Shown here one piece after another: positions 14,401-44,949 of a stretch of 64,000 nucleotides of DNA. The position numbers and the translations under genes were made by a program. The notes beneath the pieces are model-generated. The model ran no database searches. It had not been told where the DNA came from and saw only the letters and a program-made list of their open reading frames with translations. The stretch comes from Diphasiastrum complanatum (lineage: Eukaryota > Streptophyta > Lycopodiopsida > Lycopodiales > Lycopodiaceae): contig CM055112.1 in the NCBI GenBank assembly GCA_029204225.1, positions 30,592,203-30,656,202 of the forward strand. Reading direction: 5' to 3'. Numbering within the stretch: the first letter of the stretch is position 1; the number at the start of each line of letters is the position of its first letter.

Positions 14401-14486
14401 ATATTACAAATTTGGTTATTTATTTTCATACTGATTCAAATACATTTTGTTTTAGAGTCTGTTGTTCATCTTCTTTTAGCTTCGCA

Positions 14487-15665
14487 ATGGCTTCCGGAAG
14501 CCGTAGACCACGAAGCAATATTGTCTCAGTTTCTGTTAATGAAAAAGACTCTGATGGCTCTTGGATACCACGTATCTATAGAAAATTTCACTAGGTTCTC
14601 ATGCATCCCTCATCAAGAGGTGTTTTTGGTAAAAAGAGAAAATCAAATATGGATTATAGGAATTTTTGGAAAGGTAGAATTTCAGACTTTAAAGTTTCAC
14701 CCGGTGGTCGATCCATTTCAGAGGTCTTGATTCAACATGTCTACATGCATAAGGAAATTAGAGTGGAAGGCGTAAGTTGTAATGACAGACTCAAATGCAA
14801 TTGTAAGTTTTTAAGAATTGTTTGCTTTGAGCTTAGACGTGTATCTGAGTATTTAAATGACATAGTTTTATGGATTTGTGCAAATTTGTATCCATCAAGC
14901 ATAATCGAATGGCAACCTATACAATCCCTTGTCAGCATCATGGACGTTATTCATTCTGATATTGGTCTTCTGCAATACAAGAACCGCTCCACGAGATCAC
15001 TTTTGAATTCTTGTATTTTCTTCTATGATTCATTTTACACACCATCCAGTTTAGGTGGAAAATTAGAGGCGATATCATTACCCTCTTTCTCAAGCGAAGA
15101 ATGGATTCCTCCAGATTCCACCATAGTAGAGAGCTTCCGATCAAGGTTTTTTTATGGACATTCAAAACTGTATGAAATGTAGCATAGGCTTAAAAAACAA
15201 TAGATTGCACTGGTTTCTGTCTTTTGCAATATTTGTAGATTTTTTTGTTGAATGTAATATTCGTAGAACAGTGACAATGTTTATTTGTAGTGATTTAACA
15301 GACAATATGTTATCAAGCCTCCTTGATGATCATTGGGATAAAAAGAGTAATGGCAATATCGAGTGCATAGTTAATAGATCATTAATGAAATTTAGATATC
15401 TTATAGAAAAACAAGTGCTTTCTTTAACATTTTATTATAGAAGATGGTCCAAAGCTGGCAATGGATAGAAAGCATTGGATCAGGATTTTACAGTGAATCA
15501 TCAAGATCAAATAGAAATCCAGGTGAGGCAAAATAATTCTACTCTTACAACAATTGAGGTGGAAGAAGATTGGACACTCGATCACATTCGATCAGAGCTT
15601 ACATTGCTGCAATATGATATTCCTAAACACTTCTATTTTTGAGTCAACGAGAGATTGGTAGGTGT
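14487..15665 (+). pseudogene. HPSS protein gene, copy A (conserved, unknown function)
   Basis: I do not recognise this family. ATG14487 starts MASGSRRPRSNIVSVSVNEK, and an in-frame TAG at 14592 interrupts it just before the motif MHPSSRGVFGKKRK. The frame continues with GGRSISEVLIQHVYMHKEIR and KCNC up to a splice donor GTAAGT near 14802. Exon 2 starts near 14887 (YPSSIIEWQP, DVIHSDIGLLQY). A +1 slip in a T run near 15147 shifts frame, then FAIFVDFFVECNIRRT, LTFYYRRW and VEVEEDWTLDHIRSELTLLQ follow, ending at FRVNERLV and a second donor near 15660. Copies B (38267-39640) and C (44422-43226) match along the whole length. The C-terminal F-x-F-x-x-N-G/E-x-L-V block occurs in assorted plant proteins but gives no function. 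Confidence 0.75.
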
Positions 15666-15727
15666 ATGTGTATTTATTTCTGTACACATTTGAAATGACT
15701 TTCAATGATTTTATTTAAACATCTTTC

Positions 15728-16890
15728 AGTGTTTTCGGACACCTTCATGCTTGTAGGGCCTTGCGCATGATAGTAAAATTTCCAACATTTCATGCTGATA
15801 CTGATGAATCGTATTTGTTGATACCTCAGGACATTGGAACTATAAGATAAAATATCGAGTGTATGTATGTATTAGCTAATGTTTCAAGAAATATAAATTC
15901 ACAAAATTAACAATATATCATCAGGATACTGGAACTTTGAAGAAAATACCTCACGGATACTAGCATCTGGAGGTTGCACCATATACCAATCCAAGAACAA
16001 TTTAACATTCTAGATTGAATACCATCCGCAGCTGAAAGCATCGTCTTGTTGTGAAGACCGAGAAATCACAGCGAAAATTGTCAAATTATAATTCAATATA
16101 ATTCTAAACTCCATGCCATCATGCAAATAAAATACATAAAAAGATTTTTTTTACCTTTGCATCAACAATCTCTATGTTGGTACTTACAATCAGCCCATCC
16201 GGCCTGGACAATAGCTCCACCATCCTCTTGTACTTAACCATGGAATGGGTGGCATGCAAAGAATTCATTGTCATGCACACAGGTGTGCAGCTTTCAGTCG
16301 AATCCACTATCATGGATATGATGTGGACACTCCAATGTTTGTTGCCAGAAAATGACAAGCAATGAATTACTAGAATCTATAAGAGTTTCCAAAAGACAAA
16401 TCTTATAGAAAAAAAATATTACAAGAAGAAACTATCTTATTTTGAACAATATGGGATGATGAACATTGATGCCTCCTTGCTAGTGTGCCTAAAGAGCCTT
16501 TTGCCTTTCCTCTCTTTATTCAACAGATGCTCAAAAAATGGAGATACAACAAAAATATCCTTCGTGACTGTATATGTATATTTATGTACATAGTATGCAC
16601 AAGCGGATTCAACTATTGTGTCTAAGGTATGTGAGGTCTTCTCTTTTAGCTCCCTACAATGTGGGTCTTTGATATGCATTGCAAAATTAATATCGTCTAT
16701 ACAAAACATAGACTCTCCTCCGAGATCATCTATTTTCTTGGCTATATACAAGTCAAAATCAATGTACCTCTCAGAATAAAAAAATGTGTCTTTAGGTTCA
16801 TTAGGAAGTCTGATGTGCAATTCTTTATCAGTTGCATCAACATAAGAAACAATCATTAGAGGAGTTTTGAGCTCCAAAAAGACCCTTTAA
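15728..16890 (-). pseudogene. Ulp1-type (C48) cysteine protease, copy A
   Basis: Read on the minus strand. The exon at 16890-16437 carries VFLELKTPLMIVSYVDATDK, then SPFFEHLL, KGKRLFRHTSKEASMFIIPY. After an intron comes NKHWSVHIISMI (catalytic His at 16337-16335) and MTMNSLHATH, where Asn takes the acidic position. After a second intron comes QQDDAFSCGWYSI with the catalytic Cys at 16030-16028. A stop follows at once, then NVKLFLDWYMV. The last exon, FQCPEVSTNT...EMLEILLSCARP, ends at TGA near 15728. This His-(Asn)-Gln-Cys order is that of SUMO proteases. The gene runs tail to tail with HPSS and its last exon lies within about 65 bp of the HPSS end. Ulp1 domains are common passengers of plant MULE and CACTA elements. 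A TAG within the protease core makes this copy inactive as read. Confidence 0.82.
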
Positions 16891-16954
16891 GAATTCGTGC
16901 AAGATGTAGTTTATATTATTAAAATATTATAACACTAATGTTATAAGGTTAGGA

Positions 16955-17369
16955 GAGGACTCTCAACGAATGGAATTGCGAACGTACTAGCCAGATCTTT
17001 TCTAATGGGAGGAGGTGAGGATGAAGAGCTGGGAGACCTAGGCTTGGGTTGCGAACGCTTGGGCTATGCTTGCTTTCTCTTTTTTTGGGGTGGGACAGGC
17101 CCCCTTTCAAGAGGAACTTGCCTCTATGTGAAGCCAGACTTAAAAATGTTGTCATAGGTGTTTTGAAGCCTTGTGACAAGAAGCATGTCCTTGGGCATTA
17201 GTGTCACCCTCTTGCCATGAATGGAGCACAACATCGAATCCTCGAACAATTTTGTCTGGAAGTCCTCGTATGCAGTATGGAGTGCCTCCAATGCAATGAT
17301 ATTCCACCTCACTGCATAGGGCAGATGGGTGGTGCAAGTCGTATGGAAGCAATCAAACGTGAAAGCAAA
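16955..17369 (-). pseudogene. Divergent histone H3 fold segment with NLS-like tail, upstream of the Ulp1 exons
   Basis: On the minus strand the frame is open from 17369 to a TAG at 17126-17124. It reads THLPYAVRWNIIALEALHTA, then KLFEDSMLCSIH and GKRVTLMPKDMLLVTRLQ. Aligned by eye to canonical H3 from Arg83 on, about half of 48 residues match without a gap, including LFED, LC-IH-KRVT-MPKD and the final Leu-x-x-Arg. This covers helix 2, loop 2 and helix 3. Helix 1 is not recognisable and the basic H3 tail is absent. Past the TAG the same frame continues PPQKKRKQA, a second TAG, then PKRSQPKPRSPSSSSSPPPI, a likely nuclear localisation tail, up to about 16955. The first exon of the Ulp1 segment follows after about 65 bp. 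No in-frame ATG is present, so the start is missing or lies in an unseen exon. It may be the N-terminal part of the Ulp1 gene. Confidence 0.72.
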
Positions 17370-17402
17370 TTATGCGAAAACCTATACAATCCCCGGGAAT
17401 GG

Positions 17403-17875
17403 ACTTATATAGGGAAAAAAAAGTTGGCACGTGTGAATACTAGCGACACATGGCCCAATCAATAACTGACATGTGGAACCACACGTCTGTATACGCACGT
17501 GTGAAACTGCACGTCTGAATCAGCATGTGTGGGATCCCACATGGGAACACGTGGCCGAATGGATCAACGACATGTGTTCTTGCATGTATAAGCTCACACG
17601 TGTGGTCATGTGGCCCAATCAGTACCTGACGTGTGGGACCACACGTCTGTATCCACACGTGTAATACTTGCCCGTGTGGCCACGTGGTCAAATGGTTTGG
17701 TGACGTGTGTTCTAGCATGTATTAGCTCACACGTGTGGGCACGTGGCCGAATGGTAGATTGACGCGTATTGTAGCACGTGTGCATGTGTGGACATCAATA
17801 TTATATGCCATAGATTTGATCTATTGTTGGATTGACACGTGTACGGCTTGGATTTTATTGGTTTTTGCTATATAA
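17403..17875. promoter_or_regulatory. Divergent promoter with ten G-boxes, copy A
   Basis: Two opposed TATA boxes flank this region: CTATATAAG on the minus strand (about 17405-17413), driving the H3-like/Ulp1 gene, and CTATATAAAT on the plus strand (about 17868-17877). Between them are ten perfect CACGTG words, at 17428, 17496, 17548, 17597, 17656, 17681, 17730, 17740, 17775 and 17836. Many near variants such as ACACGTCTG and CATGTGTGG also occur, often in phrases like CACGTGGCCGAATGG. G-boxes bind plant bZIP and bHLH factors. Copy C has the same layout at 42674-42951. Confidence 0.72.
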
Positions 17876-17959
17876 ATGTTGTTTGATCAGTTAAAACCTT
17901 TCGCTAAGTTTTGGATTTTCACTCCCTATAGCTCTTGGTGTGTCAACACTACTATTTCT

Positions 17960-18275
17960 TTGTAGTATCTGAAGAAACAAAATGTTTCCAACTACAACGC
18001 CTTGCTAGCTTTCAGCCCTCAGCCTGACGAAGACATTCGCGGACTCGAAGATTGGAGACATGAAGCACGAAAGGTTTCGTGAACATGAAAGACAAAGGAG
18101 ACGAAGAAGAACGATTTGCGAACAGAAAAGATCCACGAACGAGATTCATTTGCAGTCTAGTACGAGAGAAAGGCATACGAGCAAAACGAAATCCGTTTTG
18201 CCCTCACGCTCCAAAGTGTACCAGCTAAGATCATGCAAGTACCCAGAAGTACATATATCTGATCTAATGGTATGA
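17960..18275 (+). pseudogene. Basic Arg-rich ORF downstream of the copy A promoter
   Basis: Two overlapping frames follow the plus-strand TATA. The first reads YNALLAFSPQPDEDIRGLED and stops near 18090. The second runs 18060-18275 and is very basic (HERQRRRRRTICEQKRS). A single frameshift could join them. There is no recognisable family. It sits where copy C has a Ser/Thr-rich ORF, but I see no sequence match between the two products. Confidence 0.35.
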
Positions 18276-18890
18276 CGTCAGCAAATACACTTTAGATCAT
18301 GGCTAATCTACCACTCTTGTAACTCCCTGACTAGTTGCTTAACCACTCTAATCTTAGATTTACATAGAGCGACCATACTTATTGGATGATACTTAATATA
18401 TAGATAAATACAATACACATACAGTGTAATGTAATAGTCTGATACTAGTAAGCAATCAAGACAATATACACAATACATGTCTGCCTGCACGTGAAGACAA
18501 TTATGTCTAGGATCAGAAGATCCAACTGTCCGCTAGTAAAGTGAGACAATTACTCGTGAGAGAACTGTGTTTCTCTCACGCCAATGCACTGCGTGGGTAT
18601 GCACGTAGTTCTCAAAGAATCAGAGAAAAGAAATCAATAGATGATATTGTAGCCTTCGCGCGCACATCAATTCGTGTTGTGTCTGATTTCGAATGAAATG
18701 TTTCTGCTGTCACAGTCTTCGGAAACTAATCCATCCACTACTTCGACGACCATTGTTGCTGGTCATGATCTACATTTTGTTGCACTTATTGAAGCTGATA
18801 AGCGTGATTTGCTAGGTAAATCTGGTTTTATCTGAATGAGATTTTTATTCAGGTATAGTTATTTTGTTTTTCAAGACATGTAACCTTTGC
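18276..18890. other. Unassigned sequence at the right side of copy A
   Basis: No motif-bearing frame is visible. A small frame near 18720-18830 (ETNPSTTSTTIVAGHDLH) is suggestive of coding but is not recognised. The right boundary of the module probably lies here. Confidence 0.4.
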
Positions 18891-18908
18891 TCGTATTTTA
18901 CAGGCTAC

Positions 18909-20272
18909 TGTGGGGGTGGATGCCTTTGCAACAAGGTAGGGACAAAGCAAGGCTTGTAGTGAAGGGTTATGCACAAAGCAACGGTATTGACTACGAAGAC
19001 ACCTTTGCTCTTGTGGCTAAGTGGAATACACTTCGCATGGTGGTTGCTTTGGCGGCACTATTTGGATGGAATCTACACCAGATGGACGTAAAGTCCGCAT
19101 TTCTGAATGGTAAGCTTGAAGAAGAAGTGTACATGGAACAACCTAGTGGCTTTGTGATACATGGCATGGAAGACAAAGCATGCAAGTTAAAGAAAGCCTT
19201 ATATGGATTGAAGCAAGCACCACGTGCCTGGTATAGCCACTTTGATGAGCATCTCCTATCCAGAGGTTTGACATGCACTTCTTCAGATTTCAATCTTTAT
19301 TACTTTGCTCATGACTCTAGTATCACACTGATTTTGTTGTACGTAGACGACCTCATAATCATAGGAAATGATGATGGTCTGATTGGTGCAATCAAGAAGG
19401 CCTTATCTTCTAGTTTTGATATGACTGATCTTGGCTTGATGCACTACTGTTTGGGAGTGGAAGTATGGCAAGGTTGCAATAGCATCACACTAACACAAAC
19501 AAAGTACGTGAATGAAGTTTTGAAGCATTCAAAATGTGCGATAGCAAGCCCATATCTACACCTATGGAGTTTGGTAAGAAACTATCTGACCAGGATGAGA
19601 GTGCACTAGTTGATGCTGTATTTCGTCAATTAGTTGGTTCACTGATTTATCTCACAACTACTGGTCCTGACATAAGTTATGTTGTAAGCATTGTAAGTCT
19701 ATTCATGGCTACTCCTAGAGAGATTCACTGGAAAGCAGCGAAGATAATTCTTTGTTATGGAAAAGGCATATTAACCCATGGATTGTTATATGAGAGACAA
19801 CATACTTTACCAGTTTTATAGAGCTTTGTTGATTTAGATTGGGCAGGCTGTATTGATGACAAGAGATCTACCACAGGTTACGTATTTCATGTTGGTAATG
19901 GTGTATGCTCTTGGTCAAGCAAGAAACAAGACACAGTTGCTCTTTCTACTACAGAAGCAAAATACAAAGCATTATGTTCAACTATGCAAGAAGCAGTTTA
20001 GCTAAGAAGAATGTTAGAAGACATTGGAATTTTGCAGAATAAGCCTACAATAATCACATGTGATAGCCAGAGCGCTATACAGCTAGCTAAAAATCCTGTA
20101 TTTCATGCACACACGAAGCATGTAGAGACTAGAGAAATTGTTATCTAATGAAATAGATGTAGTGCATTGTAAGACAGAGAATCAGTTAGCTTATATACTC
20201 ACTAAAGCTTTAAGTGCTGATAAATTTGAGTTTTTTAGAGAAAAGCTCTTTGTAAGAAAGATAAACTAGGGC
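18909..20272 (+). pseudogene. Copia reverse transcriptase and RNase H
   Basis: RT begins at DKARLVVKGYAQSNGIDYED, followed by HQMDVKSAFLNGKLEEEVYM, KALYGLKQAPRAWY and the catalytic LLYVDDLIIIGND. LGLMHYCLGVEVW and QTKYVNEVL follow. A frameshift near 19535 leads to GSLIYLTTTGPDISYVVSIV, then RNase H with SFVDLDWAGCIDDKRSTTGY, STTEAKYKAL and a TAG near 20000, ITCDSQSAIQLAKNP, HTKHVETR. It ends at KLFVRKIN* with a polypurine AAGGGAGA at about 20275. Protease and integrase are missing upstream, where copy A sits. It is probably, not certainly, the other half of the element whose gag is at 13407. Confidence 0.9.
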
Positions 20273-20282
20273 TTAAGGGAGA

Positions 20283-20960
20283 TTCAACAACTGAAGAATT
20301 TCATTGGCCTCATAAATTAGGAACATCAGCTATAATTGTCGAACCTTCAGATCTTCCTCGAGATAATGATTTCTTGCAGCTTGTGCAAAGTGAGGAACGT
20401 GAAATTTATGTGGGCTCAAGGAAGAATAGGCAAAGTGTAAAAGCTGCAAAATGAATTCCAAATTGGAAGCCTTGTTGCACTTCTAGCTTCAGAAAACAAT
20501 GAAGAACATTGGTTGCGCACAACTTCAACGAATGCTTTTTGGGAAGGTGCGAACTCAAAATGTTGCAAGTAGATCCAAAGGGCAAGAGAAAGAGATTGCC
20601 AAAAAATCAACCAAGAGTTGACGATTTAAATCTACAAGATGTAGATGTTTTGGCATTTAATTTTGAATTAACAATGACCAATCGTCTACAAAGTCAACAA
20701 TATCTATATTGAATGAACGACTTGGATTACTGAAAAAACCATCATCCTCCCTCGTCATCAACAGAGAAAAGCTGCTTTTTTTGTCAACATTAGACGCAAA
20801 TTTTGAGGAAGATATGCCAGTTGACTCTGATGAAGAAACAGGTCTTCCACTTCATCAACTGAAAACGAGAGTGTTGAGAATATGTCAAGTTCTGAATTGA
20901 GAGGCATCAATGAAAATTCCTTCGAAAATGTACTTTGAAAAAAAGAATGTGCAAATATAA
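20283..20960 (+). pseudogene. Unrecognised coding relic beside the CACTA fragment
   Basis: Consecutive plus-strand frames read VEPSDLPRDNDFLQLVQSEE, then, after a stop, ELKMLQVDPKGKRKRLPKNQ and DVDVLAFNFELTMTNRLQ. The last frame (20709-20900) reads NREKLLFLSTLDANFEEDMP. The acidic/basic mix and low stop density suggest old coding sequence, perhaps the second gene of the adjacent CACTA element, but I recognise no domain. Confidence 0.35.
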
Positions 20961-21189
20961 CTTTAAGTTGTTTTGTATTTCAATGGGATTTCAAGTTTCA
21001 AAAATCATTTGTTCTCTTGAATTATTATTTCATTTGTAATTATGATGGTTTTATGAAGTTTGCAACAAAAAACTTGTGGTTTTTTTATTTAAAATATGTA
21101 TTTTTTGGTTTTTTTTTTAAAAAAATACATGATTTTGGCCTAAAACTAGGACCATTAAAAAACACCAAAAAAAATTACTCTTTTTTAGG
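20961..21189. other. AT-rich spacer
   Basis: T-rich and A-rich runs lie between the coding relic and the minus-strand transposase. No structure is recognised. Confidence 0.5.
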
Positions 21190-22052
21190 TCAAAGTCCCA
21201 AAACAAATGTCATCGTGTTCAAATGCACTAAAAGATGAACTTGTATATCCAAAAAGGAAGTTGGAAAATCTCTTTCCAACAAACATACCATTTCGATCAT
21301 TTGGACTTTCATGGAATCCAATTCATTATTTTTTATTTCTTTTGAGAAAATCCACCTACCAGAATATTGATATAACACTAGGTTGTTTAGCACATAAAAA
21401 TATTGAAATAGCACATATTTATACAAGTGTTTAAAACGATATACAAACGTAATCATCGATGATAAATTGTAAAGCGTATTTTGTATGTCATCGTTGAAGA
21501 GACCTCGAATCGAAAGTGGAAGTATGAAGTGCAACGTCTTGTGCCAATCATGCGATTTCAATCCACTTAATTTACCATCTTTGGTAACTGATTTGCATAA
21601 AGAATGTGCATAGCCTGGTGGAATTCTCATTTGTTTTATGACATGTTTTACATGTGAGAGTTGCTCTTTTGTAAGAATCCATGGCACGCTAGGTAGAATT
21701 CATCTCCACCTTCAGTGTATTGAATCTAATAGGGTCTTTTCACGTCGGCTGCTTGTAAATCTTTAGGAGCTGCGGAGTTGTCTTTTATGCCAATGATGTG
21801 GTTCCATATTGATTCACCAACATTTTTGAATATGTGCAGAGGATCCAATAAATTATTTATCAATAAATTCCTCCAATATGGTAATTTATGAAAAATAGAC
21901 AACCGTTTTCTACTATCAATGGATTCATTCCATGAAAAATTAACATCATGATATTTAAGCCATTCACCATGCCATTTCACTACTCCCATGCGTGAGGGTG
22001 GTGGTGTAGTTAAAGGATTATTTCCTTGCCCCCCAAAAAATTGCTTATTCAA
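21190..22052 (-). pseudogene. CACTA (En/Spm) TNP2-type transposase fragment
   Basis: The minus strand reads DSRKRLSIFHKLPYWRNLL, then LLDPLHIFKNVGESIWNHII, the junction of the Transposase_21 (TNP2) region with DUF4218. After a gap it continues IPPGYAHSLCKSVTKDGKLS, GLKSHDWHKTLHFILPLSIR and LERDFPTSFLDIQVHLLVHL. The plus-strand relic at 47560-50245 has the same blocks in the same order. N- and C-terminal parts are missing and one intron-like gap (about 21370-21460) interrupts DUF4218. It is a truncated transposase gene. Confidence 0.85.
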
Positions 22053-22796
22053 ACTTCAAAAAGGATGTGATCAAGCGACAAGTATTTGCGATGATTTTCG
22101 TAGACCAGTTTTTTCAACATATTTGTACTATGACAACCCTCCAAAAGTGGTCCACAAATGTAACATGCGTTGTAACCCGATGTGGTTAAACCTGCATAGT
22201 TCATAAACCAAATGTGAGATAAGCTTAGTCAATGCACTCAAACACAAGCCCTCAAGGCTTGCCAACAGTTCATGGAGAAGAAGGCACAACCCACCCCCGT
22301 GGTGATTCCACCGCCACCTGTTTTTGACGCTGCACAGGCCAGTACAAGCCAGGACCAAAGCCAGCAAGCAGCAGGGGGGTTCAGTCAAGATCAAGGGTCC
22401 GAAGGCCAAGACCAAAGACCAACAGCAACGGGTGCTGAGATGCGAGATCAAGGCCAAGGCGCAAGTACCAGCCAAAGCCAAGAGGTTCGCGCACCATATC
22501 TGCCAGCCGGGCCTTCCGAAGACCAAAGTCCGGTGCATTATTATTTCAGCCGTCAATCCATTTCTGATGTGTCTTGATGTCTCTTATGTGAATCTTATTA
22601 CTGTGCTTGCAATAAAGGCTACATGAGTGTGCATAGATAACATACTCTGTATGTGTTGTTGTGAATCACAGTGCGTTCAGTATGACCGACGCAGGAGTAT
22701 TCGGAATTTAGCGAAACGGGAAAGGGCGGGCAGATTGCTTTGATGTCATTCGCTCAAAAAATGGCATCCAAAACTTGAGATGAATCTGGGGATTTT
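22053..22796 (+). other. Unassigned region with a Gln/Ser-rich frame
   Basis: A frame at 22272-22577 is rich in Gln, Ser and Asp (AQASTSQDQSQQAAGG) and low in complexity. A second frame over the same bases is Lys-rich. Neither has a known motif. It could be a transposon linker or chance. Confidence 0.3.
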
Positions 22797-23277
22797 TGTA
22801 GGATCATATTGAAAACATCGTCCACAGGTTCACTCTCAGATACAAAAAGCCATCTGCATTAGAGGAAAATCTTAATCGAGCTCCTTCAGAAAATAAAAAC
22901 GCAGCTGTTTCTGAGCAGGATAGCGCTCACCCGTTAGTGACATATGAGCAGACTCTTGATAAGCTTTCTGATTTGTCAGAATCTCAAGATTATTACAATG
23001 ATTATCCTTTAGAGAGAGCAATAAAGATGACGTGTTGGAGCCTGACTTTTCTGTCTACCACTTTTGGGCTGTAGATGAAGCTGAATTGGCCTCTGTAGTC
23101 GGGACTAACTTTCCAATCAGTGATACCGAAATTTTGACTAACTATTTTCCGCAATCCGACTTAGCTCTTATGGAAACTTCCGGTTTAGAAATGCCAAATA
23201 CATTTGCCAAAATTTTATCTCAATCTGATGAAACTCCAACAGCTGCGGGCGTTCTAAAGGGATTCTGCGCTAGTACG
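22797..23277 (+). pseudogene. Unrecognised coding relic
   Basis: An open frame reads DHIENIVHRFTLRYKKPSAL, then TYEQTLDKLSDLSESQDYYN. One frameshift near 23030 moves to DVLEPDFSVYHFWAVDEAEL and LALMETSGLEMPNTFAKILS. There are about 160 codons with one frame break and no internal stop, so it was probably protein-coding. No domain is recognised. It ends at the poly-T tract near 23290. Confidence 0.4.
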
Positions 23278-23354
23278 CGTGGACCAGTTTTTTTTTTTTC
23301 CATTTTTCGTCGTTTTTTTTCGCAAATTTTTTTTTTTTTACGTTTGTGGTGGAA

Positions 23355-23570
23355 TTTGGATGTGGACAGCCAATGACGGGCTGCCACATAGCACATGCAC
23401 ATTCCACCGGAGAGAGGAGAGAAAACATGCATTCCACCGGAGAGAGAACGTGCATTCCACCAAAGAGAGGAGAGAGAACGTGAATTCCACCGGAGAGAGG
23501 AGAGAGAGTGAATTCCACTGGAGAGAGGAGAGAGAATGACAGATTCCTAGGAGAGAGAAAATTGGATGGA
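23355..23570. repeat. Inverted-repeat unit plus 28-30 bp minisatellite
   Basis: The left part contains ATGTGGACAGCCAATGACGG followed by GCTGCCACAT and ends GCACATTCCACC, an imperfect hairpin. Then come five or six units of GGAGAGAGGAGAGAGAACGT plus GAATTCCACC. The hairpin unit recurs at 58755-58822 without the minisatellite, so the units may have expanded from its ATTCCACCGG end. Confidence 0.7.
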
Positions 23571-23589
23571 CATTATGCTCCTGGAGGTG

Positions 23590-23785
23590 GTCCCAAAATG
23601 CACCTGAGCACAAGGCACTACGTAATTAAAACTTTCTCGATTGAAGAGCAAAATACAAAGGACACCTGAGCACAAGGCATTACGTAATTAAAACTTTCTC
23701 GATTGAAGAGGTGATCGTCCATCGCACATAAAACTTTCTCGATTGAAGAGTTGATCGTCCATCTTGTGCGATTGAAGACATAGCC
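23590..23785. repeat. Tandem repeats around AACTTTCTCGATTGAAGAG
   Basis: The phrase ACCTGAGCACAAGGCA/TACGTAATTAAAACTTTCTCGATTGAAGAG occurs twice (from about 23602 and 23663). Two shorter copies of AAAACTTTCTCGATTGAAGAG follow, each tied to GTGATCGTCCATC or TTGATCGTCCATC. The core CGTAATGCC...GTGCTCAGG...CCTTTGTATTTTG recurs in the opposite orientation at 58612-58655. Confidence 0.7.
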
Positions 23786-23807
23786 ATGCCAATCACTTTC
23801 AAAATCA

Positions 23808-31942: not shown

Positions 31943-31984
31943 AATTACAAAGAAATCGGTGACAATATAGTCCAACTTGTCTAA

Positions 31985-33009: not shown

Positions 33010-33095
33010 AACATGATTGGGCCCATCATCATGAACCTCTAAATGTGATTGGACCCCTCATTATGAACCTCTAAATGTGATTGGAACCCATAATC
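33010..33095. repeat. Three-unit tandem repeat of about 35 bp
   Basis: ATGATTGGGCCCATCATCAT, then GAACCTCTAAATGTGATTGG followed by ACCCCTCATTAT, then the same unit again and ACCCATAAT. It is a local minisatellite with no coding role. Confidence 0.8.
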
Positions 33096-34325: not shown

Positions 34326-35637
34326 TCAACTGTAAGGTTGTCTAGAGACAGTGTGACTACTTGGAATTAACTCTAGCTTATGGTCTATCGATCTGGACGA
34401 CGGTATTCCATGAGGTAATTCAACTGGAAATACATCTTTAAATTCGAACGGTAACTTATTCTTCTTGATTTGCTCCTGATCTAAGTCTACCGAGTTTAGA
34501 ATTTTTGACAATTCACAACTACTTAGATGCATTTCAGATAAATCCAAAATTGGCTTAGCAAATAAAGAATAAGCTTCATATTGTGAATAAAAAATTTCTA
34601 TTACATTAGCAAATGAACTCATCCTAGATGGATGTACAAATTGTCTCCAAACAATGTAACTATTTCTTTACCCTCCTAAAAAGAGAGAACATGCTTCTTA
34701 AAATCTATCTTAGGATGCTTATTAAATAACCACTCGTATCCTAGAATTATGTCCGTACATGCCTAATTTAAAACATAGAAATCAATTAATTCTCTATAAT
34801 CTTGGATCCAAACTGAGAGCCTTGGAACTTTAACATCCCATGTCTCCAACTCCGCTCCTAAAGCTAGATATACTCGATATCTATGGTTACTGGCTTCCCT
34901 TTTGAGCTTGAGTTTCTGCACAAGACCAAAGTTAATGAAATAGCCATTGTCCACTAAAATACTAACTTCATGTCCATTCATAGGGCCTTTCAAATGAAAT
35001 AAATCTTTGGCAAGAATGAAGTAGTATTGAAAAAACAATCACACTCACAATTAATTTTACTAACTTCCAGCTTAAGATTCTCTTGACCTGACATCTCAAT
35101 CACTTGAGCTACGTCTTTCTTCCGTTCTGGATAGAATTTCATAACATGTTCAGGCTTACCACAATGGAAATACGCATTGGTCCTTCTTGTCTTTTTTCGG
35201 GACAATTTTTTTTTTTGTCTAAACTCAGATGCAGCTTGATCTAGTTTGTCGAAATACTTAGATTTCTTGCTACCACGAACTCTTTTCTTCTCCTTTTTTT
35301 GGCTTGGTCCTGATGATCCTGATGGATTAGCCTATAACTGCTTCATGGATGCCACCATAGTAGAATCATGCACTTTCGCGACTCGTATGACATCATCGAA
35401 AGTTTGAAGCATGTTATGCTTACACTCATTCTGATAATCTACAGGCAGACCTAGGATAAACTGCCATAGTGCCAGTTTTGCATTGAATGAGAGAACTTTA
35501 TTCCATAAATCCATAAAATCTTGTAGGTACGAGTCCAAACTCCGAGTACCCATTTTGCAATTCACAAATCTTTGGTAGAAATCTGAGTCATCCACAACTA
35601 CAAATGACTTTTTGAACACCTTCTTTACAAGGCCAGG
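34326..35637 (-). pseudogene. Ty3/gypsy gag-protease-RT start, truncated
   Basis: Read on the minus strand: a Gag block (MGTRSLDSYLQDFMDLWNKV, LGLPVDYQNECKHNML), a degenerate zinc knuckle (YFHCGKPEHVMKFY, with the first and last Cys changed), then protease with LFHLKGPMNGHEVSILVDNG, where the DSGA triad has become DNG. It ends at the entry to RT, KDVFPVELPHGIPSSRSIDH, and stops near 34326 before the catalytic palm. This motif order is diagnostic of Ty3/gypsy. There are at least two stops and frame changes. No LTR is found. Confidence 0.88.
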
Positions 35638-35639
35638 CT

Positions 35640-37000
35640 AGTTGCCAAAGGCTTTTCCCAGATTCTAGATCTAGATTATTCAGAAACCTTCAGCCCAGTT
35701 GTCAAACATGCTTTAATCCACCTAATCCTCTCCTTTGCAGCCACAGCAGATCTCGAAGTTCATCAGATGGATGTCTAGACCACTTCCTCAATGGAGCCAT
35801 CGAAGAGAAAATCTATATGATGCAGCCAGAGGGATACGAACTCAACGGCAAGCAACATCACCTTGTATGTAAAATCCACAAGGCTCTCTACGGGCTGAAA
35901 CATTCACCCATAGCCTGGTTTCAAAAGATCAACATATTTCTAATAGAGAATGGTTTCATTCCAAACTCAGCACACTCGAATGTTTACTTCAAGTCTATAT
36001 CAGAATACTTCATCATCATCACTCTTTACATAGATGATACACTCTTATTCAACAATAATCTGAAACTGATGAAGGATACAAAATGCATGTTGGCCCATGA
36101 ATACAAGATGACTCCAGCCTACTATTGTCTTGGAATCCAAATTCAATGAGATCAACCCAGCAAACTGATCTTTATCAGTCAACAATGATATCTCAACAAC
36201 ATGCTGGAAAAGTATGGAATGGCCAACTGCAGTCTCTTTCCAGACGACCCTGGACTAAAGCTATCAAAGGAACAGTTTCCTCAAACTGAGGTAGAAAAGG
36301 AGGAAACGAAGCGCTACCTGTTTCAATCCATCATTGGCTCACTGATGTACGCAATGATCTGCATGTGACCAGACCTTGCATATTCGATCAGTACACTCAG
36401 CCAGTTCTTGTCAAATCCAGACGTAGTTCATTGGAAAGTGCTAACAAAGGTCATGAAGTACATCCAAACAATAAAAACTCTCAACATCTGCTATGGAGGC
36501 ATCCAAATTACCAACATCCTTGAAGCCTACACAGATGCGGATTGGGCAGGAAATATTGACACCAGAAAATCAACTTTTGGATTTGTATTTTTATACAACC
36601 AAGGCCCAATCTCATGGAACAGCCGGAAGCAGACCTCCATTGCATTATCATCAACGGAATCCGAATACATAGCAGCCACAAATGCAACCAAAGAGGCAGT
36701 CTGGCTAAGGCAACTTCTTGCAGACCCCAATCTTACACAAACATTTCCTACAACAATCTATTGTGACAATCAAAGCAGAATAGCACTTTCTCTCAATCCG
36801 AGATTTCACTCCCGAAGCAAACATATAGAAATCAGGTATCATTACCTTAGAGAGAAAGTGCACAGCAAGGAAGTAGAATTAATTTTCTACAGAACAAACT
36901 ACATGGCAGCTGATTACTTCACAAAGGCTCTATCAAAGGAGCAACATCTCATATTACTTCACAAAAGCTCTATCAAAAGAACAACATCTCAGATTTAACA
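35640..37000 (+). pseudogene. Copia reverse transcriptase and RNase H
   Basis: RT enters at [19 protein letters not shown] and HQMDV, then IEEKIYMMQPEGYELNGKQH, HKALYGLKHSPIAWFQ and the active site TLYIDDTLLFNNN (YIDD variant). Stops fall at about 36148 and 36366. RNase H follows with EAYTDADWAGNIDTRKSTFG, ISWNSRKQTSIALSSTESEY, IYCDNQSRIALSLNPRFHSR and ADYFTKALSKEQH. A short duplication of 'CTTCACAAA.GCTCTATCAAA' occurs near 36917 and 36957. A polypurine tract and 3' LTR follow. The 5' half is missing; a gypsy relic in the opposite orientation abuts. Confidence 0.92.
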
Positions 37001-37043
37001 ATATGTTAAATCTGAAGATCAAAGTTTTTCAAAATCCTCATTA

Positions 37044-37051
37044 TGGGGGAG
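37044..37051 (+). other. Copia polypurine tract
   Basis: TGGGGGAG lies immediately before the LTR start TGTTAGATTTC at 37052, the plus-strand primer for the element at 35640-37000. Confidence 0.75.
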
Positions 37052-37812
37052 TGTTAGATTTCTTATGCTGAGGTTTAAAAATCATTAAGTAATGAGCATC
37101 TTGAAAACAGAAGGCCAATAACATGATTTCGGACCTTCACATTTTTCTCTTTAAGTTTTTTCCATTTATTTTTTTGCCTTAAAACGATTTAAGGCATCTT
37201 TGTTTTTTCGTCTTCTTTGCTCTTTTTTGTGCCTTCACAAAAAATGTGGCATAATGGCCAAAATGACTTAGAAACGATTTCTAGACCACCTTCGTCTTTT
37301 TTGCCTCTTTGCAAAAAATGCGACAAAAATCCCAGAATGCCCTAAAACCATTTTAAGGCACCTTCGTCTTTTTCGTTGCCTTAAAACTAAGGCACCTTTG
37401 CCTTTTTCGCTGTCTTAAAACTAAGGCACCTTCGCCTTCTTTGATGTCTTAAAACTAAGGGCGTCTTCAGAATTTACACACCTTCAATCTAAAGGCACCT
37501 TCGGGTTCTTCAAATTTTTTGCTTTATCTGCATTGGCAAACTGACGTCACCAAACGTATCAGCAGACCCTAAAAATAGCTGGACAACCAAATATCTAAAA
37601 GGCGGTGAGGCGGTTACCAACTTTGTACATATGCAAAGACTAGTGTAAATAGCCTTAAAGGCTTGTAAGATATTTTTTCTCAACACTTTTAAATATATAT
37701 ACTAGCTAAATCAAACTATGTAAGGGTTAATTGAATTTCTCTTTCAATCAAAGTTATCTATAGCCAGTGTTATCACGCTCAACAAGCTGAAGTTATTACT
37801 TCAAGCCATTGT
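37052..37812 (+). mobile_element. Copia 3' LTR, cut off at its right end by copy B
   Basis: The LTR starts TGTTAGATTTCTTATG and runs through AGCTGGACAACCAAATATC, GGCGGTTACCAACTT and TCAAGCCATTGTACTC at 37812, where similarity to its relatives stops. Reverse-complement relatives lie at 41238-41650 and 63086-63560. Both continue past GTACTC by about 150-300 bp to the LTR end, so the last part is lost here. Confidence 0.82.
37180..37510 (+). repeat. Minisatellite inside the copia LTR
   Basis: Units of about 35-70 bp centre on GCCTTAAAACTAAGGCACCT and CTTCGTCTTTTTCG (for example at about 37378, 37413 and 37446). Each has the palindrome CCTTAAAAC...TAAGGC. Other LTR relatives in the window do not include this part, so I cannot tell whether it is a family trait. 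Confidence 0.7.
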
Positions 37813-38266
37813 ACTCCATTAGAGGAGTTCTCAATATCAAAAAGACCCTTTGTAAAGATACTTTTATTTTTTTCTTTAGTTTCGACCATCACCAGGCCCT
37901 ATCAAAATGCACAGATCTACGTAACGTAGTTCAAATTAACTGAGAAATAAAAATGCAATATAGAAAACTTTGAAATTTGTGTGCGGGCAGCATGGACGTA
38001 TCCCATTGGTTTCTTCTTCCTGCCCGACACGTGCTAATCTGCCCAACGTCAATACCTCAAGTTAAATTTACTTGACTATGCTGGTTAGTATAATGAAATT
38101 TTCTACCTATACTAGTTACAATTATAGAAATACAGTATGTACAGTTACATAAAATATGGTATACGCAATAACTGTGACTATGTTGGCATTCACATTAGAT
38201 TAAATGTGATACAAAAAATTGAAATTAAGTATCATATCAGAGATTTTTGGCGCCCAAGCTTTATAA
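37813..38266 (+). promoter_or_regulatory. Left end and probable promoter region of copy B, shared with copy C
   Basis: It begins CATTAGAGGAGTTCTC and passes CAAAAAGACCCTTTG and a T-rich stretch. Then come the palindrome CTACGTAACGTAG (about 37919) and GCGGGCAGCATG followed by CCATTGGTT (a reverse CCAAT-type ATTGG). Copy C has the same landmarks in the same order on the minus strand between 44905 and 44640. This is the region upstream of both HPSS genes, so it probably contains the HPSS promoter and an element end. Confidence 0.55.
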
Positions 38267-39640
38267 ATAGCAATTGCAAGGAGACCCAGATCTACAATCG
38301 AGTCTGTGATTCTTTATAATGAGAAAGATGAAGCTGATAACTGGAAGCCAATAAAATATACGAGGAATTCATGAGTATTGCTGCATCCATCATCAAAGGG
38401 CAATTTTCGACAAAAGAAAAGAGCAAAAATGACTTACACATCTTATTGGAAAGCAAAAAATTTGGAGTTTAAGACTACTCCGGGTGGTCAATCGATATCA
38501 GAAGTCTTAGTACAACATGTGTATATGCATTCAGAAATCAAAGTACATGATATCAATCCTCATGATCATCAAAAATGTAATTGTAAGAATATCAAAACAT
38601 ATGCACTATACAACAATCATAGGTGATTTTCTTTATTGATGCTCTTCAGATTATGATTTAAATGCTTCAACATTGTTTTTTTTCTTTCAAATTTATATCC
38701 ATCATGCATAAGTGAATGGGAGCCCTTACAATCACTTGCAGGAATATTAGACGTGATTCACTCTGATGTTGGAAAGCTGCAATACAAAGGAAGAAGTCCA
38801 AAGGAACTTGCAAATTGTGGTATCTATTTTTATGAGTCTTTATATATGTCACAAACAGAGGGAGGTTTTGGCAAGCTCTAATAAATTCCATTGCCTAGTT
38901 TTCAAAGTGATGAGTGGCCTACTCCTAATAGCATTGTTTTTTAATCCTTGAGATGCAAGCTACTCATTGATATTAGAAATGCTATGATGATAAGCACAGG
39001 CTCGAAAATCGTTCACCTAAGTTGGTTTATCTCATTACATATATTTGTTGATTTTTTCTCAAGTGCTAATGTTCGTAGGACACCAACTTTATTTGTTTGC
39101 AAGGATTTATCAGATGAGACTTTGTCAGATCTCATGGATCAAGGCTGGGATAGTAAAACAAATAATGACATAGAATGTAGAATTGAAAAGTCCTCTATGA
39201 TCTTTCATTATCATATCGAAAAACAAATGCTCAATCTCACATTTAGCTACCATAGATACAAGGAAATTGAAGGTACATGGCTACCACTGAATCAAGACTT
39301 TGAACTAAATGGTCACACAGACCGAATGGAGATAAGCATTATCTACAATGAGAAATATTTGACTATGTTGAGGTGGAGGAGCATTGGAAGCTTGATTTTA
39401 TCAAAACAGAGCTCATGCTATTACAAACCAATCTACCAACATATTTCAGGTTTATCATCAATGGAAGACTCGTAAGTGCTTTATGTTAATTTCCATTTCA
39501 AAATAGAACAAAATAATAAAAAATGTCATCATTTACAGTTACACATTCACTAATATTTGTCATGCCACAAATGCGAAAAAAACAGGAGCTGATAACGTGC
39601 TGCAAAGATCTACCTATAACAATCACCATTGTGGGAGAAC
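38267..39640 (+). pseudogene. HPSS protein gene, copy B
   Basis: This is the best preserved copy. The expected start codon is ATA (38267-38269) where copy A has ATG; then RRPRSTIESVILYNEKDE. A TGA at 38372 sits at the codon that is TAG in copy A and TGG in copy C. LLHPSSKGNFRQKKRAK, GGQSISEVLVQHVYMHSEIK and KCNC follow, up to donor GTAAGA near 38583. Exon 2 (about 38696 on) has YPSCISEWEPLQSLAGILDV, then IFVDFFSSANVRRTPTLFVC, DLSDETLSDLMDQGWDSK, IEKQMLNLTFSYH, LPLNQDFELNGH and a frame change into VEVEEHWKLDFIKTELMLLQ and FRFIINGRLV, at donor GTAAGT (39472). A final exon near 39571-39640 reads PQMRKKQELITCCKDLPITI and stops. The function is unknown. Confidence 0.75.
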
Positions 39641-39841
39641 AATAGTTTCAAATAAACTTTAGTAAAATTCTGTGTATAAACTCTTTCATTCAATAAATGA
39701 AAGCCCAAGTTGGGCATCAGTACATGTATTTTGTACTCCCAAATTCATAAAATGGAGCATCATTTGATATATCAATGTATATTTACTTATGAATTCTATA
39801 CATGTATTTTTGTTCTATGCTATATGTATTTGTTCAGATCT

Positions 39842-41165
39842 TAATTTAGTATAACTACATCATCCTTTGCACCATCATCAATAACAGGAGGCTGAAGCCT
39901 TGCCCTAGCCAATATACTCAAGATCATTTCTTGTCTAAATCTATACACCTGGCTTGATGTATACTCAGGAAGTGTAAACTACAAGATAGAACATTCATGT
40001 ATTAGTAATGGCTAAAAACATCAACAAAATAGAAAACTAATTATGATTCCAAAAATAAGAATAAACAGAATTTATTATCTTAGAAATATCAACATCTTCT
40101 TGAAGGTTGAACCACTCAAAAAATAACTTGGCATTGTATAATGTGTACCACCCACAGCTGAATGAATCATTTTGCTGGGGTGACTACAAAAAAATTCAGC
40201 ACACAAGAAATCAATTATGAAACAGAATGAATTAGAATGAAACAAATACATTAGAATACTGATTTCAAAATGCTATTAAGAAAAAAAGAATTTACCTCCA
40301 AACTGACAATCTGCCAGTCCACTGAATGAGAAACATCTGTAGGAATATACTTACTTAAATATGGAAGGTAAATATCTACATCCTTATGCATATTGCTCGT
40401 CGAATTCATCTTGACACAAAAACCTTTAATACTATTATCTACAAATCTCTTAATAGAGATCACGTTTAAACTCCAATGGTCACTGCAAAATAAGATTGAA
40501 ATTTCTTTAGCTACAATTCTGAAAACTATTTCCATTGACAATGTCAATGTTAATGCATAAAACAGCAAGAAGCATTTAATATATCTTACTTGGTATGATA
40601 AAGGATGAGCAGATATTTTGTTGCTGGTGTGAACCATAAATCCTTTAAATTGCACCCTGTCCAACCCATGTATCCTCATCACTTCATTCAACATCTCCCA
40701 AAATTTGGTTTGGGCCATTGCATCTTCAAGTTTCATCTCACACACAACTATTGTTTGCAAGCTCTGCACACTGACAAAAGAATTTTCCATCAAGACACTG
40801 AGAACACAATGGAAATCTGACAGATAAGCAACATCATAGACAAATTACCTTGGATTGTAAATATGGGCAGCCATTGTACTCCATTCTTGCACCTTGTGCA
40901 CATGATCAAAACATATCCAAGAGTGCTCCAAGTCACTTTCCGTTTGCATATGCCTGACCAGATCCAGACTAGATGCAGGACCAATTGTGAATATCTTTAA
41001 TATGAAACATCTATCACTTGATCCATCCACAGCTTGTCCAAGAAATAGGGATCCATGGAAATAATTGTAATTAAAATTTTTCTTTCAAACCAAGACTGGA
41101 ATTGATAGAATCTCCTTTTGGATGATTATCGATCTTGTATTCGACTATCCATTTTTTGAGTCTAC
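39842..41165 (-). pseudogene. RNase H-like transposase segment joined to Ulp1-type protease, copy B
   Basis: From 41165 on the minus strand: KWIVEYKIDNHPKGDSI, then FHGSLFLGQ, DLEHSWICFDHVHKVQEWST, an intron (GTAATT...TGTCAG), QSLQTIVVCEMKLEDAMAQT and DRVQFKGFMVHTS. The FDHVH, CEM and FKGFM spacing looks like an RNase H-fold transposase of the MULE type. The FKGFM block is normally followed by Asp-Ser; here it is His-Thr. After an intron-like gap comes SDHWSLNVISIKRF (His at 40477-40475), YLPYLSKYIP, another intron, QQNDSFSCGWYTLYNAKLFF (Cys at 40156-40154), and the last exon LPEYTSSQVYRFRQEMILSI ending at TAA 39842. Copy A has the same protease exons and C-terminus. The transposase assignment is inference; the Ulp1 assignment is firm. 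Confidence 0.75.
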
Positions 41166-41237
41166 AGCAAAACAAGATATCAAAAGACTATGATGTATTG
41201 ATAAAACCATCATAAAACATGGTAATGACCGACAGCA

Positions 41238-41650
41238 AAAGCTCAACGCTTTGAGCGTAGGCATGTAGGAATGGAAACGCAACAGTTAGCAGCAGAAATA
41301 TTCAAGAAGAATAATTCATACAAATTGCGCAAATGAACAATACAGTAGTGAGACAAAAATTGCACTCTGATTAATATTGACAGTGAGTACAATGGCTTGA
41401 AGTAATATCTTCAGCTTGCTGAACGTAATAACGTTGGCTACAGATAACTCTGATTGAGAGACAACTCACTTACATAGCTTGATTCATCTAGTATACATAT
41501 TTACAAGTGTCGAGAGACAAATACCTTATAAGCCTTAAATGCCATTTACTCTAGTTTTGTATATGTACAGAAGTTGGTAACCGCCCTTGGGATATTTGGT
41601 TGTCCAGCTGTTTTTCGGGTTGATGATAAGTTGGCAATGTCGGTCTACCA
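41238..41650 (-). mobile_element. Copia LTR fragment, inverted relative to 37052-37812
   Basis: The reverse complement reads AACAGCTGGACAACCAAATA, GGCGGTTACCAACTTCTGTA and TACTTCAAGCCATTGTACTC, matching 37580-37812. It then continues ACTGTCAATATTAATCAGAG and GTTGCGTTTCCATTCC, matching 63110-63240. No primer site or gag is visible next to it, so it is a solo or broken LTR. Confidence 0.85.
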
Positions 41651-42660
41651 ATGTAACAAAAATCCGAAAAGCAGAGTCTCAGCTTCAGTGAAGTCAAAAA
41701 GATCCGATATATCCGATATTGTCAAAAAGGAATTATTATCTATATTATAAGTAGGCAAAGTGATCAAAGATTTATTTGAAGGAGAAAGGGTAGTGGGTGT
41801 TCTAGGGCCTATAGAAGTAGCCCTATTTCGAGCATGATCAAAATCAGAACAATCATCTAAATTAACACGCGTATCAATAAAAAAAGTATCTATATCTACA
41901 GTCTTTGACTTTTCAGACTTTGTACCACTAGAAGAAGCTGCTTCAGAAGTGGAGGGCACAGCCTCCGAATTGTCAAAAATATTTAACAAAACGAAAAAAA
42001 TAAAAACAGACTGAAAATCAACAAATCTACATTTTTTATTATGAATTGAGCACTCATCTACAGATTTGAAATCATTATGTAACTTGGTAAACATTCTGTC
42101 AAGCTTAGCTTTATAGATATGCTTGTCGACTGCCACCAGGTCCTGATAATGAACTATGTCCTTATTCTAAGATCTGAATAGAGGAGTACTGAGCAAGGAC
42201 TTAAATCTGAGATATATCGTAGAAAATGCCTCCACACCTGAGCCCTCAGTTATAGAAGGTAGAATAAAAGAAAAAGAAGAAAAAAGAGATTTGAAATAGT
42301 CCAACCTATCAGTAATACCAAATTCTTAAAAAAAATAAAAACAAACTGGACTCAAAATTAAACATTTTAAACAAAAATAATAGAACTAAAGTTCCAAATA
42401 TCACTCTCAGGTGCAAACTGCAGGTCAGACAAGCACTTCAAGGCAACATGCGCTCGAGAGAGATATTTGAAGTTGGAGTATCGGATCCGAGCGCAAGAAC
42501 ACCGAGCAAAAAAGGAAAGAGGTCCAAAGCGCGCTTGAATGCGATACCAGACAATGCAGTATCGGATCCAGACGCATAATAGTCAACGAAAGGTAATGAG
42601 AGCAAGCAGCGCGCTTGAAATCGATATCCAGAAAAGCAATCGTAAATTTGCGTGAAAATC
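41645..42660 (-). pseudogene. Ser/Thr-rich unknown protein gene, copy C
   Basis: Downstream of the minus-strand TATA at about 42680. The clearest frame (42136-41645) reads DRMFTKLHNDFKSVDECSIH, then a Ser-rich stretch (STSEAASSSGTKSEKSK), RATSIGPRTPTTLSPSNKSL and ISDISDLFDFTEAETLLFGF. Upstream in the same direction, about 42310-42150 reads ITDRLDYFKSLFSSFSFILP with a stop. The first 200 bases after the TATA repeat ATCG..TTCAAGCGCGCT and GGATCCGATACT. No family is recognised. It may be spliced. It ends where the copia LTR begins, so the 3' end may be lost. Confidence 0.4.
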
Positions 42661-42673
42661 CGAGCCGAAAAAG

Positions 42674-42951
42674 ACCTATTTATAAAAAGAAATTCGCACG
42701 TGTGGAGTGAAGAAGGAACACGTGTTGAATTGTGATTGGTTAAAATAAATGCGTCGTACCTAGAATGATTGATCTGACATCTGTCATGTGCGAGAATGAC
42801 ACGAGTTGATATCGGATTCGCGCACGTGTCTTAGCCCACATGGCCTCATAATTGGGTCATCACTGTCAATATGGACATTCCATGTGGATTAATAATCTAA
42901 CGACACGTGTCTTCGCCATCTTTTCACACGTGCAAAAATTTTGTATATATA
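42674..42951. promoter_or_regulatory. Divergent promoter with five G-boxes, copy C
   Basis: The opposed TATA boxes are TTTATAAATAG on the minus strand (about 42675-42685) and TATATATAA on the plus strand (about 42944-42952). CACGTG occurs at 42697, 42719, 42823, 42904 and 42927. The plus-strand TATA continues TATATAAGTCC, the same bases as the minus-strand TATA of copy A, and the minus-strand leader has GGATTTTCAC like the plus-strand leader of copy A. The two promoters are therefore homologous and inverted. Both leaders here carry ATCG..YTCAAGCGCGCT. Confidence 0.7.
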
Positions 42952-43225
42952 AGTCCTCAGAATTTTTATTTTTTTTCACAAGATTTTTGTTTTTAGCTCT
43001 CGATATCGCTCTCAAGCGCGCTCTTTCACCGATGATTGGCACATATTTGTTGATAGTAAATCTCAATGTTCTTCCATAAGTTGAATTGTTTCGTCAATAT
43101 CTCTGCATTTGATCTCGAGCTCATGTCTTTTACGTACCTGCATAAAACTAATACAAAGTTAGTTAGAATTAGTACAGAGTTTGTATTAGAAAGTTTTAAT
43201 TGAAACTATTAATAAAAGATCGAGT

Positions 43226-44422
43226 GTTTATAGTTACTTACGAGTTTACCATTGAAAATGAATCTGAAGTCTGAAAGTACATCATCTGTAGGAGCAATAG
43301 TTCCCATCGGATGTAGTTTAGACTCCAATCTTCTTCCACCTCAACACATGTCAAAACGGCATCATTGTATATAATTTCAATATTTTTTCGTTTTGAATGT
43401 CCACTAGCTTCCAAGTCTTGATCGAGTGGCACCCATTTACATTTATTTTTTTTCCATCTTTGATAATGGAAGCATAAGCTCAACATTTTTTTTTCAATTT
43501 GATAACGGAAGCACATGGAAGACATTTTAATTCTGCATTATATTTCTCCATCTGATCTTTTGTCCCAGCCTTTATCCATAAGTTCAGATGATAAACTATC
43601 TGATAAATTTTTGCATACAAACATCGTTGGGGTTTTGTGTACATTGACACTTGAAAAGAAATCCCCAAATATATTCAAGGAAATAAATCAACTCAATCTG
43701 ATTGTTTTGTATCCCGTGCTCATTTTTAATGAATTTTTTACATCATTATACATCTTGCAATGAAATGATTCTTAAACTGTAGCATCTGGTGCAATCCATT
43801 CATCACTTTCAAAACTAGGTAATGGAATTGGTACTATTTGTCCAAAATTTTCTTTTGTATCAAGAATGTACATTGATTCATAAAAAAAAATCCCTATCAA
43901 CTACATCTTCTCTAGTTCTACCTCAATATTGCAGTTGTCCAATATCAGTGTGAATAACATCTAACACACCACCTAAAGGTCCACTAGGCTCTCATTCATT
44001 TATGTTGGATGGATATAAATCTGCAAGAGAAAAATGATCAGATTGGCAAGTTTACTATTAGATATTTATGAATGACAAAAATCAAAGTATCAAAAATATC
44101 AATACTCACAGTTGCTTTTTTTGTGATCCTGACGGTTGAATCCTTGCACATTTATCTCTGAATGCCTATATACATGTTGGACTAGAATTTTAGAAATAGA
44201 TTTTCCTCCTGATGATGAAGCATCCAAAATTCTGGCCTTCCAATAAGATCAAAATGATAGTTTTGACCTTTTCCTTTTTCGAAATGCTCCTCTTGATGAT
44301 GGATGCATCAAAATCCAAGAGTTTTTTGAATATTTTTTTGGCACCCATAATCCATTATCATCAGTCTCGTTGAATAGAAGCACAGAGTTTATTGAGGAGC
44401 ACGGCTTCCTTGATGGCACCAT
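43226..44422 (-). pseudogene. HPSS protein gene, copy C
   Basis: ATG at 44422-44420 starts MVPSRKPCSSINSVLLFNET and runs without a stop through WILMHPSSRGAFRKRKRSK, keeping the Trp codon TGG (44317-44315) that is a stop in A and B. A TGA follows shortly after (SKLSF*SYWKAR), then GGKSISKILVQHVYRHSEIN and donor GTGAGT near 44112. Exon 2 (about 44020 down) has stops and a frame change but keeps GPLGGVLDVIHTDIGQLQY. Then YQIEKKMLSLCFHYQRW, VEVEEDWSLNYIRWELLLLQ and DFRFIFNGKLV end at donor GTAAGTA (43228). It confirms that HPSS is a real gene family with fixed introns. Confidence 0.75.
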
Positions 44423-44949
44423 TCGTAATTTGCATGCAAAAATCTGAAACAATGAACTATGAATCTGAAAATTTGCGTAGACAAAAAGCAATGAATCTGA
44501 GAAAAAGTGTTGGCAAAAATTTGAAACACTAATCTATTTGGCACCACAAATTAGCTCTGGTTAACCCTATTAACCATGGATTGACAATGCATATACATTA
44601 ATGGTACATCGATTTTCTCATCTCAACCATCTGTCATATTCATTTTCAATATTTTTGGGTCTCTTCAGGCAGTGATGAGCTGGAAGGGCAGGCCTCATCA
44701 ACCAATAGCATTTGCACATGCTGCCCGACGAAACAACAATATATTTAAAAAGTTTTTATTTTATTTATATTTGGAAAATTCTACGTTACGTAGAACCCCA
44801 AAGCTAAGGTTTCAATTGGTCCACATGGCAACAAAAATAAGAAAAAATAAATAAATAAACATCTTTTTCAAAGGCCCTCGTTGGGCTCTAAGTCTCTCCA
44901 ATGAAATTCTGTTTCAACATTTGATGAATACAACTGGAATTTAAATGGC

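Follow-up and report, generated by a model that had tools for sequence, protein, structure and literature searches.

The 64-kb window analyzed here (the whole stretch of Diphasiastrum complanatum DNA taken from contig CM055112.1) carries three copies, labelled A, B and C, of a gene termed HPSS, which in A and B is paired with a gene for a Ulp1-type (C48) protease. The HPSS copies diverged under purifying selection and were later broken by stop codons and frame changes, and both the HPSS-Ulp1 pairing and the long constraint are real. A conserved block of HPSS may resemble the nucleosome-binding motif of CENP-C, an observation that goes beyond the initial annotation of this DNA. Tentatively, the modules are read as defunct remnants of two genes that were carried together in plant DNA transposons, most likely Ulp1-bearing Mutator-like elements (MULEs), and that had a nucleosome-directed function.

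Plant transposons repeatedly carry Ulp1 proteases, for which no reason is known. A possible reason, should the partner gene encode a nucleosome-binding protein with a CENP-C motif, would be that transposons act on the way in which SUMO controls centromeric chromatin, and this would bear on why transposons fill plant centromeres. Should the modules derive from a host gene cluster instead, they would represent an unrecognized family of CENP-C-motif-like genes, which is of interest, though less so.

The HPSS gene and its protease partner

HPSS is located on the plus strand in A (about 14475-15700) and B (about 38282-39645) and on the minus strand in C (about 44407-43063). The copies were detected by self-BLAST, their frames agree in all three pairs, and B and C share 65.7% identity across 1219 bp in the self-comparison. 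A DNA profile built on the three copies recovers only those three, and the 64 kb contain no fourth. The existence of one gene common to the three modules, inverted in C relative to A and B, had been proposed in the initial annotation and is borne out with refined coordinates. Each copy is broken: A has an in-frame stop one codon ahead of VLMHPSS and a frame change near 15150, B is interrupted by multiple stops and shifts frame near 39350, and one codon that reads TGG in C has decayed independently to TAG in A and to TGA in B.

An intron occurs at the same place in all three HPSS copies, which identifies them as DNA copies and rules out a retrocopy captured by Copia. Codon alignments comprised 350 (A/B), 342 (A/C) and 349 (B/C) codons. 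For these pairs, respectively, the proportion of synonymous differences (pS) was 0.70, 0.74 and 0.70, that of nonsynonymous differences (pN) was 0.33, 0.35 and 0.25, and the ratio of nonsynonymous to synonymous divergence (dN/dS) was 0.21, 0.14 and 0.15, ratios that are only rough because silent sites are near saturation. In control alignments, in which the frames were displaced by 1 or 2 bases, dN/dS was 0.98-1.64, and third codon positions were the most divergent in all three pairs. The low dN/dS and the near-saturated silent sites indicate that the HPSS copies parted long ago as working proteins and that decay came later.

In A and B the Ulp1/C48 gene lies on the strand opposite HPSS, tail to tail with it, at 15759-16560 (minus strand) and 39890-40634 (minus strand), respectively. 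The local alignment of the two protease genes scores 707, whereas the highest score among 300 dinucleotide shuffles was 505. After manual joining of the exons, Pfam Peptidase_C48 was recognized with 21.9 bits in A and 27.4 bits in B (cut-off 20.7); without joining, it was seen in the Cys exon of B alone, below the cut-off, and A gave no match. The likeness spans the protease core and the C-terminus, ends about where a transposase-like block of B starts, and does not extend to the regions 5' of the core (z -0.2 and 1.6). His, Gln-Gln and Cys are found in both proteases (His codon at about 16337 and Cys at about 16030 in A; about 40478 and 40156 in B), and the presumed acid position, usually aspartate, is occupied by Asn in both (about 16265 and 40406); which residue counts as the acid is our reading. 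Constraint was weaker than in HPSS (pN 0.42 vs pS 0.63, 130 codons).

No Ulp1 remnant was found in C: with both strands compared, its right side (41650-43060) did not resemble the Ulp1 sides of the other two copies (z -0.3 to 0.5). The initial annotation had described the facing genes of A and B and the agreement of the protease core and C-terminus, and these points stand; the protease that it regarded as lost from C is absent there. Its further suggestion that C keeps the promoter of the lost gene is unsupported, because the right side of C shows no likeness to the Ulp1 sides.

A block resembling the CENP-C motif

In the CENP-C motif, a basic part contacts the H2A-H2B acidic patch and an aromatic pair contacts the CENP-A tail (PMC5371998). 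A conserved block of HPSS may resemble this motif as it occurs in the human protein, which was used for the comparison in place of plant CENP-C; the block is located at 14598-14735 (plus strand) in A, 38378-38515 (plus strand) in B and 44174-44311 (minus strand) in C. When the three-copy HPSS profile was compared with 177,635 PDB sequences, the sole match was the human CENP-C nucleosome-binding motif (E 0.0028; 0.0085 for the stretch), and with copy B as the lone query the search yielded two entries, both of them CENP-C (E 0.033 and 0.86). Pairwise Smith-Waterman scores with the human motif were 73 for B, 61 for C and 47 for A, the weakest of the three, and were reached by 0, 0 and 1 of 5000 shuffled motifs, respectively. 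When the window was scanned in six frames and stops were ignored, B, C and A occupy ranks 1 to 3 and the next place scores 42, near the value of A; on pieces cut at stops, B ranks first, A second and C, which is split by its own stop, sixth. A phmmer search with the human motif gave E 6e-5 for B and an insignificant E of 0.91 for A. The aromatic pair is retained in HPSS, as Tyr-Trp in B and C and as Phe-Trp in A, and so is most of the basic run, while the second of the paired arginines of the motif is kept in no copy and A has neither. The likeness continues beyond the motif into GG-x-x-IS-x-(V/I)L.

A chance resemblance, in which a basic run happens to be followed by aromatic residues, is a substantial possibility. 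The E-value of the profile is modest given eight PDB searches, the likeness covers about 45 residues, the phmmer result for A and the closeness of its score to the next place in the window speak for coincidence, and so do the loss of the second paired arginine from all copies, the lack of any further CENP-C or KNL2 domain in the Pfam results and the use of a comparison that contained no plant CENP-C. Against coincidence stand CENP-C as the lone match of the profile in PDB, the near absence of equally high scores among shuffled motifs, the top three ranks taken by the three copies when stops are read through, and the extension of the likeness past the motif.

The CENP-C-like block, with its basic run and its Tyr-Trp or Phe-Trp, would be the point of similarity between HPSS and the centromere proteins CENP-C and KNL2 (CENPC-k); the HPSS copies differ in being small broken genes amid transposon debris. 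Pfam gave no match to the cupin domain of CENP-C or to the SANTA domain of KNL2 in the pieces searched of these broken genes, and HPSS is not classed as CENP-C or KNL2 because neither domain was reported. In Arabidopsis, alphaKNL2 contains a CENPC-k motif in its C-terminal half, and the targeting of this half to centromeres requires ULP1d, a Ulp1-type protease (PMC12903445); a host thus offers a functional parallel to the opposed CENP-C-like and Ulp1 genes. Pairing of the two within a transposon was not encountered among the matches listed from the open-licence literature, which is not proof of absence.

As a whole, HPSS gave nothing near the cut-off in Pfam, and its C-terminal half had no match in PDB; the ubiquitin-like look of the C-terminus is our impression, without support from PDB or Pfam. 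No relatives were confirmed among the stretches of viral contigs (71) and of prokaryote genome contigs (200) that fit two short peptide patterns, and no Rfam family reached its gathering score. Matches to Ribosomal_L20, DUF6572, TraI_middle, DUF4292, Adeno_E3 and NorA were discarded as chance matches, all being below the cut-off or having E >0.003.

Setting and origin of the modules

Domain recognition identifies the window as plant DNA rich in decayed retrotransposons, with Pfam domains for Copia gag, Pol beta-barrel, pre-integrase, reverse transcriptase, CACTA tnp2, DUF4218 and peroxidase. Copia gag adjoins A and Copia Pol adjoins C; both are internal Copia sequence, which suggests insertion or deletion. 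The Copia neighbourhood is recognized by these domain matches for A and C and by self-similarity for B, in agreement with the initial annotation, which had placed the copies in different orientations beside retrotransposons. In the self-comparison, a truncated Copia-type long terminal repeat (LTR) piece lies to the left of B (37538-37816, plus strand) and a Copia-type LTR, probably solo, lies between B and C (41219-41647, minus strand). These repeats were rejected as long terminal inverted repeats of B and are assigned to Copia because a third copy of the same family (63552-63093, minus strand) precedes a primer-binding-like site (63082) and a Copia gag domain (62883-62635). A tandem repeat of period 34 and about 3 copies (37354-37460) lies shortly before the truncated LTR piece. 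Insertion of A within a single Copia element was also considered and was not borne out: gag before it and reverse transcriptase after it are on the same strand, but no LTR pair joins them.

The flanks were analyzed in 20 strand comparisons with 60 shuffles each. A block upstream of HPSS is common to B (37838-38276, plus strand) and C (44883-44450, minus strand; z 16) and absent from A, and contains two exact motifs, CTACGTAACGTAG and CGGGCAGCATG. The first is a near-palindrome (37917-37929 and 44781-44793) and a possible promoter or binding site. Besides this block, one comparison slightly beat the shuffles (left arm of B against the right side of C on the minus strand, z 2.1), in an orientation that is not that of a terminal repeat.

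In B, the initial annotation had reported a transposase-like block (40570-41084, minus strand). This is indeed an open, spliced-looking stretch, for which there was no Pfam match at or near the cut-off and no PDB match. A presumed resemblance to Mutator-type plant proteins has no support from the databases, and no relatives of the first exon of the block were confirmed among 270 viral and 47 prokaryote contig stretches selected by pattern. A 173-residue open frame without a Pfam match is located between B and C (41648-42166, minus strand). Upstream of the protease gene of A, Pfam Histone marks an H3/CENH3-like histone-fold fragment (17166-17309, minus strand), the best PDB matches of which are cnp1 (1.4e-10) and H3.3 (2.4e-10), scores that do not separate CENH3 from H3; its RW, MLC and VTLM are residues that we take to be of CENH3 type. 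The fragment may be present by chance or as shuffled cargo. Diverged internal repeats (17443-17870) appear beside it as self-matches.

Plant MULE and CACTA elements frequently contain Ulp1 genes as cargo (PMC2528002; PMC8978399). In KI-MULEs (Kaonashi) the Ulp1 gene faces the transposase gene (PMC2528002), and across the MULEs of grapevine, melon and rice Ulp1 occurs in both orientations (PMC2528002; PMC13317346; PMC8978399). These and other Ulp1-carrying plant MULEs resemble the modules in having a Ulp1/C48 gene that faces another element gene, often without terminal inverted repeats (PMC2528002; PMC13317346), and the Ulp1/C48 domain is present in A and B and absent from C. The modules differ from KI-MULEs in the facing gene, which is the mudrA transposase in KI-MULEs and HPSS, a gene without a Pfam match, in the modules. 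No mudrA/MULE domain was matched in the six frames of A or in the block of B, a search that could miss decayed or unmodelled relatives, and DUF1985 was not reported by Pfam in the pieces searched. CACTA elements likewise carry C48 as an accessory gene, with Peptidase_C48 in ORF2 (PMC8978399), but the CACTA pieces of the window stand at least 4 kb from the modules; Transposase_21 and DUF4218 had no Pfam match in the module pieces searched, and no search was aimed at CACTA ends. In Ginger1 and animal Mutator elements Ulp1 is also linked to a transposition protein (PMC2836005), as the C-terminus of the transposase, unlike the separate convergent gene described here, which follows a transposase-like block in B only.

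Of the two leading readings, a transposon origin is slightly favoured over an ancient host gene cluster. Unlike flanks, differing orientations, the breakage of all copies after constrained divergence and the type of cargo represented by Ulp1 suggest mobility, as does the tail-to-tail order held in A and B despite silent-site divergence. A 9-bp direct repeat, ATATCAAAA, occurs at both sides of B (37834-37842 and 41177-41185), and the B/C likeness begins directly after its left copy; as a candidate target-site duplication it adds weakly to this side, the chance of such a repeat being 0.03 or 0.013 depending on the interval chosen, for a post hoc observation in which several junctions and lengths were tried. 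Several observations weigh against this reading. No terminal inverted repeats were found at A, B or C, where true ends may be lost, and exact 9-mer inverted matches number 0 at A, 0 at B and five, mostly AT-rich, at C. No 9-mer is common to both junctions of A or of C, a second shared 9-mer at B is of low complexity, and no LTR pair encloses A (z 0.6 and -0.3). None of the databases used identified a transposase in the modules, and no counterpart of the transposase-like block of B was detected in A. The activity of Ulp1 is uncertain because the presumed acid position is Asn in both copies, and the resemblance to CENP-C is short and weak in A. A local gene cluster could also explain three copies inside 30 kb. 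The new DNA transposon family put forward in the initial annotation is therefore possible: the flanks, orientations and Ulp1 cargo agree with it, while the search of the copy breaks for inverted repeats and duplications of 8-11 bp yielded no terminal inverted repeat and a candidate duplication at B only, and no transposase was identified.

It is quite possible that two ancient host genes, one for a CENP-C-motif-like protein and the other for a Ulp1-type protease, underwent local duplication as a pair, diverged over a long working life and decayed amid invasion by Copia and other elements, without ever being mobile themselves. The proximity of the three copies, the long purifying selection on intron-bearing genes and the lack of terminal inverted repeats or firm duplications fit such a history, and count against it are the unlike flanks, the differing orientations, the breakage of all three copies, the internal Copia sequence adjoining two of them and the frequency of Ulp1 as plant transposon cargo (PMC2528002); within the window the copies do not sit in a colinear host context without boundaries. 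Capture and shuffling of host gene fragments by elements of the Pack-MULE or Helitron type, with no role of HPSS and Ulp1 in movement, would account for the joining of the protease gene of B to an unrelated-looking block and for the histone fragment of A, but is improbable, since both genes recur in an unchanged order in two silent-saturated copies, with constraint on HPSS, which exceeds what random capture would be expected to give.

If the modules are relics of Ulp1-bearing transposons, the CENP-C-like motif of the HPSS protein would tether the element machinery to nucleosomes, which might be those of centromeres or pericentromeres. The Ulp1-type protease could then remove SUMO-like tags at that chromatin, and this stripping might help the element to insert there or to evade silencing. 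A more specific version, which we consider doubtful, is an element-encoded chromatin-homing kit that would combine a CENP-C-motif protein of centromeric preference with a SUMO protease, mimic the host pair alphaKNL2-ULP1d and steer insertion or escape from silencing, the CENH3-like fragment of A being a captured part.

Further features of the window

The CACTA-type pieces comprise DUF4218 at 21190-21699 (minus strand) and Transposase_21 at 48957-49406 (plus strand). An inverted repeat pair of about 275 bp with 89% identity is located at 45597-45865 and 51899-52170, its arms about 6 kb apart, and a partial plant-type peroxidase gene is present at 7629-8075 (plus strand; Pfam peroxidase, 94.7 bits).

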